64,000 bases of DNA from Frigoribacterium sp. PhB116 (GTDB lineage: Bacteria > Actinomycetota > Actinomycetes > Actinomycetales > Microbacteriaceae), in assembly GCF_004364285.1 (NCBI RefSeq), contig NZ_SOBE01000001.1, forward strand, positions 992,001 through 1,056,000, given 5' to 3'. The stretch's first letter is position 1. Each line of letters begins with the position of its first letter. The position numbers and the translations under genes were made by a program. Below are positions 52,241 to 57,850 of this stretch, one piece after another. The notes under the pieces are model-generated. The model saw only the letters and a program-made list of their open reading frames with translations, had not been told where the DNA came from and made no database searches.

Positions 52241-52672
52241 TCACGGCCCGGGGCCCGTCCGGCGCCCTGCGGAGGGCGGCGGTCCCGCCGTCGCCGAGGC
52301 GCGCACGGCGACCCCGAGCAGGGGCGCCGACCCTGTCACGACGACCGTCACGACGAGCCCGTCGACGTCGCAGGAGGAGAGCTCGACCGTGTTCGCCCGA
52401 GCCAGCGACGCTGCCACGGAACACGGCCCGCCGCCGCCCGTGACCAGCCCGGCGGCGGCGTCCGCGGCGGCCAGGGCGGAGGCGTCCGCGGCGCCCGCCA
52501 CCCTGCTGCGCTCAGCGAGCGCCTGCGTCCCCGCGAGGGCCGCCGCGGCCAGGACCGCGACCACGACGACGGCCGAGACCGAGAAGACGGAGGCGCTGCC
52601 CGCGTCGTCGTCATCGGTCCGGCCGGCCACGGCCGTCCCCTCTCTCCCCCTCGTCTCTTCTCGCCGCCTCAT
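52241..52672 (-). CDS. Rv3654c-type TadE-like pseudopilin of the Tad locus
   Basis: 143 aa from ATG 52672, overlapping the TadE stop (ATGA). A charged N-terminus (MRRREETRGREG) is followed by GSASVFSVSAVVVVAVLAAAALAGTQALAERSRVAGAADASALAAADAA, one membrane helix running into the Ala-rich amphipathic helix seen in Rv3654c-like proteins. Two cysteines in the C-terminal half could form a disulphide. It is probably a minor pilus or secretion component. Last gene of the operon. Confidence 0.8.
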   Translation of the reverse strand: MRRREETRGREGTAVAGRTDDDDAGSASVFSVSAVVVVAVLAAAALAGTQALAERSRVAGAADASALAAADAAAGLVTGGGGPCSVAASLARANTVELSSCDVDGLVVTVVVTGSAPLLGVAVRASATAGPPPSAGRRTGPGP

Positions 52673-53010
52673 CCGCCGGCGGCCGGCGCGCAGCTGCGGG
52701 CCCGCAGGGTGACGACGCCGGACAGGGGCCCGAGGGAGACTGCCCTGGCCACCGTGAGGCAGACGATCGTGCCCTCGATGGACGCGCTGCTCTCGGCACC
52801 CGGCGCCAGCGCGGCCAGCGTCGCCGAGACGGAGTCGACGTCTCCCCTCGCCGTCTGCCGGGCGGCCACCGCGGCGGCGTCGGCCAGCCGGACGGACTGT
52901 GCTGAGGCCCCGACCGCCCCGACGGCCAGCGCGACGACCGCGAGGACGGCGGGAAGGACGACCGCGAACTCGGCCGTGACGCTCCCGGTGTCGCGGAGGA
53001 CCCTGCTCAC
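52669..53010 (-). CDS. TadE-family minor pilin
   Basis: 113 aa from GTG 53010. TGSVTAEFAVVLPAVLAVVALAVG is the TadE signature: short polar leader, Glu, then one hydrophobic helix, followed by RLADAAAVAARQTARGD. The C-terminal domain has two cysteines. It is a pseudopilin of the Tad/Flp apparatus. The 4-base overlap with the next gene shows co-expression. Confidence 0.85.
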   Translation of the reverse strand: MSRVLRDTGSVTAEFAVVLPAVLAVVALAVGAVGASAQSVRLADAAAVAARQTARGDVDSVSATLAALAPGAESSASIEGTIVCLTVARAVSLGPLSGVVTLRARSCAPAAGG

Positions 53011-53016
53011 CGTGTC

Positions 53017-53295
53017 TCAGCCGACCGACAAGGCCGAGCGCACGAGGTCGCTCAGGACCCCGCGCACCTCGTCCGACCGCATGATCACGACCAGGAGCCC
53101 CGCGAAGCCCACGGCGGCCATGATCACGATCGCGTACTCCGCCGTGGCGGCCCCGTCCTCCGACAGCCACCGCCTCCTGGTCCGGGAGGCGCGGTCGGCC
53201 CGCCCGGCAGCGTGGACGGGTACGGGTACGGGGACGGGAACGCGCGGGAAGGTACGGTCGTCGGCGGTGGTCGTGGTCGTGGGGCTCGTGCTCAT
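53017..53295 (-). CDS. DUF4244 Flp-type pilin-like protein
   Basis: 92 aa from ATG 53295. The N-terminal half is a Thr-rich then Pro-Val dipeptide stretch (RVPVPVPVPVH) and a basic patch (RASRTRRRW). It then has SEDGAATAEYAIVIMAAVGFAGLLVV, the DUF4244/Flp core with the Glu-Tyr pair typical of class III pilins. It is probably the major structural pilin subunit of this locus. No prepilin peptidase is encoded nearby. Confidence 0.85.
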   Translation of the reverse strand: MSTSPTTTTTADDRTFPRVPVPVPVPVHAAGRADRASRTRRRWLSEDGAATAEYAIVIMAAVGFAGLLVVIMRSDEVRGVLSDLVRSALSVG

Positions 53296-53402
53296 GTGCT
53301 GCTCTCTCTCGTCGGTGGCGACCACGTGTCGTGGTCGGGAGCGAGTCTCCGACGACGGGGCATGCTGCCGCCGACCGCGCCGCGCCTCCTGGGCACGGAC
53401 GG

Positions 53403-54365
53403 TCAGAGGACGTCGGCTGTGGAGGAGAGGAGCGCGACGACGAGCGGGACGACCCCCACCACGAGGAACGCCGGCAGCACGCAGGCACCCAGGGGCAGCA
53501 TCAGGGTCGATCCCAGCCTGGACGCCGCTGAGCGCGCCGCCGTCGTCGCGTCGAGACGGCGCTCCGCGGCCGCCGCGCGCAGCAGCGCGCCCGCCGGGGC
53601 TCCCGCTCGCCGCGAGAGCTCCAGGACCGTCTCTCCGCCCCCGTCGTCCTCGGCGCCGGCTGCCGGGCTGTCCCGACAGGCCTCGTCGACGAGGTCGAGC
53701 CCGCCCTGCCAGGACCCGCCCCCCGAGACGGCCACGGCGAGGAGCTCGAGGCGGAGGCCCGGCACGGAGGCGCTCGGGACGGCCGAGCGCACCAGCCGAC
53801 CGTTCCAGGCACGGGCGGCGAGGACGAGAGCCCCTCCCGTCACGAGACAGCCCCAGCCCACCGGGCTGCCGAAGAGCACCGAGGCGGTGTCGAAGTCGAG
53901 CCCCAGGGAGAAGAGGAGACCCACCGGGGGGAGGGCGAGGACGATCCGCCCGGTCGAGCGCGGGCCGCTCAGCGCCACCTCCACCTCGCGTCGAGCGGCG
54001 TCGGCCTGGCGGAGGGCGGCCACGAAGCTGCCCAGGCACTCGGCCAGCGGAGCCCCGCTCCGCTCGGCCACGTGCCAGGCGCAGGCGACCTGGGCCCACT
54101 CGACCGCGTGCCGCTCCCCGTCCCGGGCCGTGCCGAAGGGCCGGTGCTCGAGGGCCTGCCGCAGGGACGCCGACACGAGGATGCCCTCGTCCGCGCAACG
54201 GCCGACGTGGGACGCCACGGCACGGACGGGCCCGTCAGGCTCGGCCTCGCCCACGTGCCTCCAGGCGGACGCTGGCGTGACGCCGGCCGAGAGGAGGACG
54301 GCGAGTCGATCGACGACGGTCGCCGCGGGGGTGGGCGGAGGTCGACGACGCCCCCGCCCGGTCAC
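53403..54365 (-). CDS. Fused TadB-TadC-like platform protein (two T2SSF-type halves)
   Basis: 320 aa, GTG 54365 overlapping the tadA stop. The first half (about 12-170) has a T2SSF-like pattern: [27 protein letters not shown], then two membrane helices ([15 protein letters not shown] and [15 protein letters not shown]). The second half (about 185-320) repeats it: [36 protein letters not shown], then a final helix pair including [20 protein letters not shown]. Many actinobacteria encode these as separate tadB and tadC genes; here one compact gene covers both. It forms the membrane platform on which TadA acts. Confidence 0.75.
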
Positions 54366-55477
54366 CGGCCCCGTCGGCCGCCGGCGTCGGCGCCGACGAG
54401 GCCCTCCCGGGCCGTGAGCTCGCCCGACGCCGACGTGCCGAGGCTGCCGATGACGGCCAGCCGCCTCCGTCCGCCTGCCCGGTCGAGGTGGAAGACGGCG
54501 TCGAGAGCGCTGACGGCCTGGCGTGCCAGGGCCGTCGGCGCGAGACCGGCGACCGCCCCGAGCGCCTCGAGACGTGCGGGGACGTCTGCGAGGCCGTTCG
54601 CGTGCAGGGTCCCGGCCCCGCCGTCGTGTCCGGTGTTCAGCGCCGACAGGAGGTCGCGGACCTCGACTCCACGGACCTCCCCCACGACGAGGCGGTCGGG
54701 ACGCATGCGGAGCGCTTCCCGCAGCAGCCGCGCGAGGTCGACGCCACCCACCCCCTCGAGGTTCGGCTGGCGGGCCTCGAGCGAGACCACGTGGGGATGG
54801 ACGACGCGGAGCTCGGCCACGTCCTCGACGGTGACGATGCGGTCGCCCGGCGACGCCGCCGACAGCATGGCCGCCAGGAACGTGGTCTTGCCGGTGCCTC
54901 CCGCGCCCGTCACGAGCACGTTGGCTCGTCGGTCCACGCACGACCGGACGACGCCCTCGTCGGCGTCGGCGAAGAAGCCGGCCCGGCTCAGGTCGTCGAG
55001 CGTCGGGGGCACGGCCCGGGGGAAGCGGATGGACAACGCCGTGCCGGATGTCGAGATCGGCGGCAGGACGACGTGCACGCGCACGCCGCCCGGGAGCCGT
55101 ACGTCGACGCACGGGCTCGCTTCGTCGACGTGGCGCCCTCCCCGGGCGACGAGCCGCACGGCGAGGTCGCGCACGGCCGCCTCGGAGAGGTGGACGCGCG
55201 GCTCGGGGCGTGCGCCGCCTCCCCGGTCGACCCACGTGCCCGCCCCGCCCGTGACGAAGACGTCCGTCACGCCGGGGTCGTCCAGGAGGGGAGCGAGCGC
55301 TCCCAGCCACGACCTGTCGACCCGAGGGCTGTGTACCCCGTTCGCGACTTGTGTACCCCATCTCGCGGCGGCACCCGGCGGGGCCGCCGCGACGAAGCGC
55401 CCGGGCTCCGAGGCGAGGGCGACGAACGGGTGGTCGGGGGTGAGGCCCGGGGTGGGGGCGGGAGGCGCTCCGGTCAT
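54362..55477 (-). CDS. tadA: TadA/CpaF-type pilus assembly ATPase
   Basis: 371 aa from ATG 55477. An N-terminal domain (1-130) has [17 protein letters not shown] and [21 protein letters not shown]. The RecA-like domain has Walker [10 protein letters not shown] (191-199), an Asp/Glu box near VTVEDVAEL, the Walker B region [12 protein letters not shown], and a His box [13 protein letters not shown]. It powers Flp pilus assembly. No CpaE-like gene lies upstream; instead the 6C small RNA does, reading in the same direction. Confidence 0.92.
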
Positions 55478-55597
55478 GTCCGGACGCTAGCTGCCCGGCA
55501 CGATCAAGACAGACAGGGCTGTGCATCCTGGGGAAGAAGACCAGGCGGCACGCGCTGGGGAGGAATCACCCGGGTGATCGTCGGACGATCCACCGGG

Positions 55598-55697
55598 AAA
55601 AAAGAGGGGCGGCACCAGTTGGGGGGAACTGGTGCCGCCACGGCAGCGCTGGATCGGGGGGAATCGCTCGCGCTGCACACCGGGGTTGAATCCGGAC
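55598..55697 (-). ncRNA. 6C small RNA (actinobacterial family with two C6-loop hairpins)
   Basis: On the minus strand two stem-loops each show six consecutive C in the loop, the defining feature of the 6C RNA family (Rfam RF01066 as I recall). Hairpin 1: 7-bp arms (55670-55676 and 55643-55649) with an inner GAT/ATC stem and C6 at 55661-55656. Hairpin 2: 13-bp perfect arms (55627-55639 and 55608-55620) around C6 at 55626-55621, then CCTCTTTTTT, so it is also the intrinsic terminator. A -10 box TACAGT (55709-55704) predicts a start near 55697 and an RNA of about 100 nt. The mycobacterial 6C RNA (B11) also lies at the Tad locus. Confidence 0.88.
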
Positions 55698-55703
55698 GAG
55701 TCC

Positions 55704-55709
55704 ACTGTA
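55704..55709 (-). promoter_or_regulatory. -10 box of the 6C RNA
   Basis: TACAGT on the minus strand, about 7 bases before the predicted RNA start. No good -35 hexamer is visible, which is common in this genome. Confidence 0.55.

Positions 55710-55864: not shown

Positions 55865-57850
<1,986 letters not shown>

Follow-up and report, generated by a model that had tools for sequence, protein, structure and literature searches.

6C is a family of actinobacterial RNAs (Rfam RF01066) built from two hairpins, each with a terminal loop containing about six C or more, the second hairpin being also the terminator; its first description reportedly pointed out an association with pilus and partitioning genes. 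The closest described relatives are the mycobacterial B11 RNAs. In Mycobacterium marinum, lead probing resolved B11 into three stem-loops, of which loops 2 and 3 are C-rich, and the RNA has its own −10 element; the C-rich loop of its terminator pairs with G-tracks adjoining ribosome-binding sites (PMC12395582). B11 was first found in the gap between Rv3660 and Rv3661 (PMC12395582). In M. abscessus, B11 has two C-rich loops that repress through G-tracts, and either loop is enough to repress eccB4 (PMC10470900). The 6C RNA of Corynebacterium glutamicum (cgb_03605) was seen by Northern blot as a transcript of about 100 nt, which extends 27 nt beyond the Rfam model at its 5′ end and contains two stretches of eight C (PMC4046766). 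An Ms1/6S-like RNA lies beside 6C in mycobacteria (PMC6582537, PMC9569102), and the conserved Ms1-adjacent location has been published for mycobacteria and Streptomyces coelicolor (PMC6582537).

The window analysed here, a stretch of 64,000 nt from Frigoribacterium sp. PhB116, specifies on its minus strand an RNA of the same design (Table 1). Direct reading gives a molecule of about 100 nt with two C6-loop hairpins, as 6C requires, the first with an inner GATT/GATC stem enclosing CCCCCC and the second with a perfect terminator stem of 13 pairs; both loops are flanked by U and A or G. These hairpins and the T6 tail, to which an earlier note on this DNA had drawn attention, were confirmed by direct reading, a terminator scan and folding. 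The terminator scan of a 501-base stretch covering the locus returned exactly the second hairpin, its sole terminator-like site (0.1 expected in shuffles), which is predicted to work as an intrinsic terminator, and the minus strand folds at −47.6 kcal/mol compared with −28.2 (sd 2.7) for shuffled sequences (z −7.2; 0 of 200 as good). We regard the RNA, with a probability of about 0.85, as the Frigoribacterium orthologue of 6C/B11, i.e. a trans-acting sRNA with its own promoter, ending at the second hairpin. It is an ordinary orthologue, which differs from B11 in its host, in having C6/C6 loops where M. marinum has C6/C9, and in the absence of ssd from the 120 nt between 6C and tadA.

Table 1. 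Features of the 6C–tad region, in coordinates of the window.
Feature	Position	Strand	Basis and remarks
TadE-like pilin gene	52669..53010	minus	match slightly under Pfam cut-off
DUF4244 gene	within 53017-53451	minus	
tadB-like gene (T2SSF)	53403..54362	minus	start codon not fixed
tadA (TadA family ATPase, TIGR03819)	54362..55477	minus	
−10-like element TAGCGT of tadA (putative)	55484..55489	minus	6 nt before ATG
Box 2, TCCCCA	55529..55534	minus	27 nt from box 1, 51 nt before tadA ATG
Box 1, TCCCCA	55556..55561	minus	upstream of tadA; genus alignment and box scan
6C small RNA (presumed transcript)	55598..55698	minus	RF01066 43.4 bits; own model R1 110.9 bits (window copy is itself part of R1); fold
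T-tract of 6C terminator, CCTCTTTTTT	55598..55607	minus	direct reading; contains T6 tail
Second C-loop hairpin and intrinsic terminator stem, GGCGGCACCAGTT-CCCCCC-AACTGGTGCCGCC	55608..55639	minus	C6 at 55621-55626
First C-loop hairpin, GCAGCGC...GCGCTGC	55643..55676	minus	C6 at 55656-55661; direct reading and fold
5′ stem-loop (third hairpin, no C loop), CCGG...CCGG	55680..55695	minus	fold and family alignment
−10 element TACAGT of 6C promoter (putative)	55704..55709	minus	alignment of window and 14 genus loci
acs (acetyl-CoA synthetase)	55865..57850	plus	divergent from 6C

Conservation across the Microbacteriaceae was judged from an alignment of 55 sequences, comprising the window and 54 of 78 non-redundant loci; the 24 omitted were six loci of other families, divergent Microbacterium, Agrococcus and Pseudoclavibacter types, L106, L020, L058 and the near-identical L022. 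In the 55 sequences the two C-runs hardly vary, nor do the U/A flanks beside them, and a structure of 30 pairs in three hairpins is paired in 90.5% of 1634 cells, with double changes at 19 of the 30 pairs. None of 500 shuffles matched the real alignment in any of five measures, and sliding the pairing partners lowered the paired cells to 37–49%. Double changes were found at all seven pairs of the outer helix of the first C-loop hairpin and at 5 of the 12 pairs of the second. The 5′ hairpin covaries but is the weakest helix (66–76% of cells paired), and since it was placed by hand before counting, its counts lean on our own reading; RNAalifold did not predict it from the MAFFT alignment, which is poor in that part. 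As a class-wide feature the 5′ hairpin was rejected, for 48 of 62 upstream stretches score as a hairpin but so do 741 of 1240 shuffles, a rate that confines the evidence for it here to Microbacteriaceae. This third hairpin, overlooked in the earlier note, is also already known from M. marinum B11. In nine class loci, eight found by scan and one by eye, at least five C stand in the loop of the 5′ hairpin, and some other actinobacterial families thus have three C-rich loops in their 6C RNA.

RF01066 aligns end to end (model 1–75) with the 501-base stretch at 43.4 bits (E 1.8e-4), which is 3.6 bits short of the gathering score of 47, so that a scan of the window at gathering level lists two tRNAs and no 6C; the next best Rfam family on the same stretch gave 24.4 bits, its gathering score being 65.3. 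Some stem positions of the model are missing from the window copy, and its extra 5′ hairpin lies outside the model. The covariance check proposed in the earlier note thus fell below the curated threshold, but by a marginal shortfall, for all 15 other genus genomes have a match at E up to 0.05 and eight of them pass the cut-off. Relatives overall gave a match in 35 of 60 genomes, 12 of these above the cut-off, and the class gave 116 of 196 at E up to 0.01 (82 above the cut-off). The strict filters lose weak matches, both in the 80 class genomes where RF01066 found no 6C at E 0.01 and in the 18 of 100 tadA-carrying family genomes where R1 found none. A simple scan of the tadA strand, covering 1.2 kb upstream of the gene, located two C-loop hairpins in 69 of 80 tadA loci, four of which are doubtful or very divergent (L047 and L106 lack a proper model match, and L051 and L060 are of the L047 type). 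Among the 11 loci missed, the covariance model places 6C farther upstream in three (L038, L049 and L059), leaving 8 of the 80 without 6C, one of them with only a partial match (L066, 17.5 bits). The window adds a new 6C orthologue, together with a family-level model of three hairpins and near-invariant loops that recovers copies below the Rfam cut-off. Elsewhere in the window genome, a lone C6-loop hairpin scores 32.9 bits with RF01066 (G000:C1:1236215-1236287, minus strand); inspection by eye found neither a second hairpin nor a T-tract there.

Upstream of the RNA, the TACAGT element forms the right end of the interval delimited in the earlier note. In an alignment of copies from 14 of the remaining 15 genus genomes (G007 had no locus given), 13 show TACACT or TACAGT at this position and the fourteenth, L028, shows TACTGT; the GGGG directly upstream is kept across the genus. 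A sigma-70 consensus scan of the 501-base stretch found no promoter, and the case for a 6C promoter is therefore one of conservation. Transcription from it would begin about 6 nt below the −10 element and end in the T-tract.

The conserved location beside tad that had been suspected for this RNA was borne out on a larger scale. R1 matched 82 of the 100 family genomes searched, all 100 of which carry a tadA homologue, and a same-strand tadA lies downstream of 6C in 80 of the 82, one of them broken; the other two, G290, where the contig ends, and G270, fall outside the tad count. In 77 of the 82, tadA lies within 8 kb downstream, in 68 of these within 600 nt, with a median of 231 nt from the end of the 6C model to the aligned tadA start. 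The apparent exceptions were settled by inspection, G315 and G028 having divergent tadA genes 76 nt downstream and G286 a tadA fragment at 540 nt. In G286 tadA is broken into a part beside 6C, which matches residues 54–200, and another at a distance of about 86 kb, both on contig C5, and the 6C gene is intact. Beyond the family, 40 class neighbourhoods were hand-picked from RF01066 matches among relatives and class genomes, and 36 have a same-strand tadA downstream of 6C, at 0.2–0.4 kb in seven Microbacteriaceae and mostly at 1.0–1.5 kb elsewhere; those without tadA nearby are L168, L173, L174 (a doubtful 6C) and L184. At six tad-linked loci tested, the first gene after 6C encodes the septum-site protein Ssd in five, one of these matches (L150) lying under the NCBIfam cut-off, and a GntR-type regulator in the sixth (L172). 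Rv3660, which borders the B11 gap, we take to be the ssd gene. Given this same-strand tad linkage in family and class, the window copy is a positional orthologue and occupies the ancestral place between divergent acs and the ssd/tad operon. Structure, covariation and synteny together therefore support the earlier note in its central claim, namely that a 6C RNA with promoter and terminator of its own lies at a conserved place between tad and acs.

What the linkage means is a separate matter. There is an even chance that it reflects the inertia of gene order in an old chromosomal stretch, with no functional tie between 6C and pili, an explanation that is compatible with a trans-acting sRNA. The order of acs, RidA and PBP is likewise kept in most Microbacteriaceae loci inspected, and in 24 of the 40 class neighbourhoods acs stands upstream, on the other strand; against inertia, linkage to tad persists in more of these neighbourhoods than linkage to acs does (36 versus 24 of 40), although the neighbourhoods reach about 9.5 kb a side and miss more distant acs genes. 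With a tad linkage this strong, whether 6C and pili are functionally tied can be put to the test.

The same linkage, seen in nearly all loci examined, would also suit a mainly cis-acting element, in which 6C is a leader or attenuator of the tad operon, its terminator passes a controlled share of transcription into ssd/tadA and the stable RNA is a by-product. Rfam types 6C as Cis-reg, and the distances to tadA in the window and the family are short. What lies between the two genes tells against this. On the tadA strand the gap contains two TCC[A/C]CA boxes, a GTCTGT-like element and CTA..GTC directly before the ATG, in the window and in most of 14 genus loci. When a spacing of 26–28 nt and a distance of 49–55 nt to the ATG were allowed, both boxes were perfect in 12 of 15 genus loci (the window and 14 others), with one mismatch in L028, two in L023 and three in L019. 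The 81 family tadA loci (80 and the window) gave 8 perfect box pairs and 23 with one mismatch, where about 60 permuted consensi gave means of 0.22 and 2.03 and maxima of 4 and 17 on the same loci, counts that are non-independent owing to the relatedness of the genomes. The tadA transcript would probably be leaderless, and from their sequences 6C and tadA look like separate transcription units. As tadA has conserved boxes and a −10-like element of its own below the 6C terminator, a regulatory region common to both, which the earlier note had considered, is not borne out. The terminator, moreover, is a perfect 13-pair stem, and mycobacterial B11 is trans-acting (PMC10470900, PMC12395582), so a mainly cis-acting 6C is improbable. 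That the RNA is a mere C-loop terminator hairpin without regulatory role, for which the single-hairpin look-alike in the same genome could be cited, is most improbable in view of two to three conserved hairpins with almost invariant loops in a fixed place and of mycobacterial orthologues that are functional sRNAs.

As a trans-acting sRNA, 6C would be transcribed from its own promoter, terminate at the second hairpin as a unit separate from tadA, and expose C6 loops able to pair with G-tracts located in or close to ribosome-binding sites, thereby blocking translation or speeding decay of the target mRNAs. Since the window RNA has the anatomy needed, this mycobacterial mechanism of pairing near ribosome-binding sites is taken, by analogy, as most likely here. 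A search of the window genome for G6 sites near starts gave no convincing target, and two of three counts showed no enrichment over the reversed pattern: KGGGGGGA occurred at 46 sites versus 51, GGGGGGN3-11RTG at 190 versus 178 and the ATG-only form GGGGGGN3-10ATG at 46 versus 23. The likely starts among these 46 ATG sites include mraZ and an ECF sigma factor, both identified by eye instead of through a family search, besides some unknown genes. The best candidate, mraZ, carries six consecutive G at the ribosome-binding site of its leader (G000:C1:198040-198056). It was dismissed as a conserved target, since 3 of 29 leaders, its own included, have such a run within 60 nt (30 loci, one dropped as its start was not found) and most relatives have shorter G runs. 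The suggestion in the earlier note that G-rich leaders are the targets hence remains plausible from the mycobacterial work, but the search yielded no convincing example and the G6 run of mraZ is not conserved. G5 runs outnumber C5 runs on the sense strand of the tad side (380 versus 129 in 72 loci), and on the acs side the counts are 91 and 153 (79 loci). The G-runs in tad mRNAs were set aside as a target signal, at least one run in the window falling within codons (VVGEV).

The boxes in front of tadA recur well beyond this genus. In the 36 class loci that remain when the four of 40 without tadA are left out, TCCACA occurs in sense within 150 nt after 6C in 27 and twice or more in 15, compared with 2 in antisense, 3 in an equal stretch upstream of 6C, and 0.8 (any) and 0.00 (twice or more) in shuffles; 14 of 17 spacings fall within 26–32. 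Among 69 family loci, 50 have TCC[A/C]CA after 6C, against 4.5 in shuffles and 3 upstream, and 7 have the pair.

Genome-wide, YGTCCACA-N18-26-GTCCACA has 85 sites in 15 class genomes versus 5 for its reverse, G098 having no site, and most genomes with several sites have one or two dominant box spacings. These genomes were chosen because most had tad box pairs, so that tad is not independent evidence there. Genes following 77 of the sites were examined (of the other eight, six are at tad and two overlap counted sites). They were assigned as ssd/tad, by position (5), TadE or DUF4244 (4), ComEA-type with SLBB plus HHH (5), ComM/YifB-type (6), ComF-like (2), SSB (9), RecA (2), RecQ (1), DUF4192 (4), AbiEi_4-type (11) and replication or partition genes (DnaN, RecF-type, DnaB, ParB; 4), leaving 24 other or unassigned, among them L324 without a gene and five outside the Pfam scan. 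Some assignments were made by similarity to Pfam-annotated members, and the names ComM and ComF are our reading of Mg_chelatase/ChlI and phosphoribosyltransferase matches. Under mechanical start prediction, 20 of 76 starts lie 50–53 nt after the second box; the distance varies, from 21 to 83 nt for the five ssd genes, 19 to 106 for SSB and 16 to 420 for the ComM-type.

In the window genome, TCCMCA-N20-22-TCCMCA has 10 sites at 8 places versus 2 for the reversed pattern. Three lie 51–52 nt before a predicted start, namely those of tadA, a methylguanine-DNA methyltransferase gene and an AbiEi_4-type gene (below the Pfam cut-off), and the remaining sites lack this geometry. Before its comEA stands a box pair with a single mismatch, a spacing of 27 nt and a distance of 52 nt to the ATG, a layout near that of its tadA (no mismatch, 27 and 51 nt); this pair came to light only in a scan that tolerated mismatches and let starts fall inside the match. 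Perfect pairs precede comEA in 9 of 16 genus loci, with one mismatch in a further 6 and none in G003; all 30 comEA loci gave 12 perfect pairs and 10 with one mismatch, where about 60 permuted consensi averaged 0.53 and 1.37, with maxima of 9 and 16. A stricter first scan had given exact pairs in 10 of the 30, the window genome not among them.

Taken together, the 6C–tadA stretch carries a candidate operator, at slightly better than even odds, of an undescribed actinobacterial competence regulon, in which a direct pair of TCC[A/C]CA boxes would control the Tad operon and comEA-, ComM-, ComF-, SSB- and RecA-type genes. The boxes would mostly be spaced 26–32 nt apart, often about 51 nt before the start codon, in promoters of the leaderless type, and in much of the class the 6C sRNA would have stayed beside its pilus operon. 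The consensus of the DnaA box is of the YYNTCCACA type, also found at oriC genes. The class boxes fit this consensus, the TCCCCA of the window does not, and two paired-box sites precede a dnaN and a recF-type gene; on account of this likeness and these two sites, DnaA, or else a protein whose site is DnaA-like, is a possible regulator.

Transformation of Micrococcus luteus depends on Flp (Tad) pili (PMC4322843), and the competence regulon of that organism was termed currently unknown in 2026 (PMC12849477). Searches limited to open-licence literature brought up no description of such a box, nor was one seen in the available part of PMC8467076. The regulation of natural transformation in Actinomycetota is still open, and the paired box offers a gene list, a promoter geometry and a DNA bait with which to approach it. 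As far as comparison of sequences can tell, this promoter signal is the more novel result, and one that matters more than the RNA beside it and is worth following.

Genes of the AbiEi_4 type, encoding regulator domains, and DUF4192 genes recur behind the paired box in several actinobacteria, the former at twelve loci, with DUF559 in one (L319, L321, L369, L370, L380, L381, L383, L389, L394, L395, L397 and L358).
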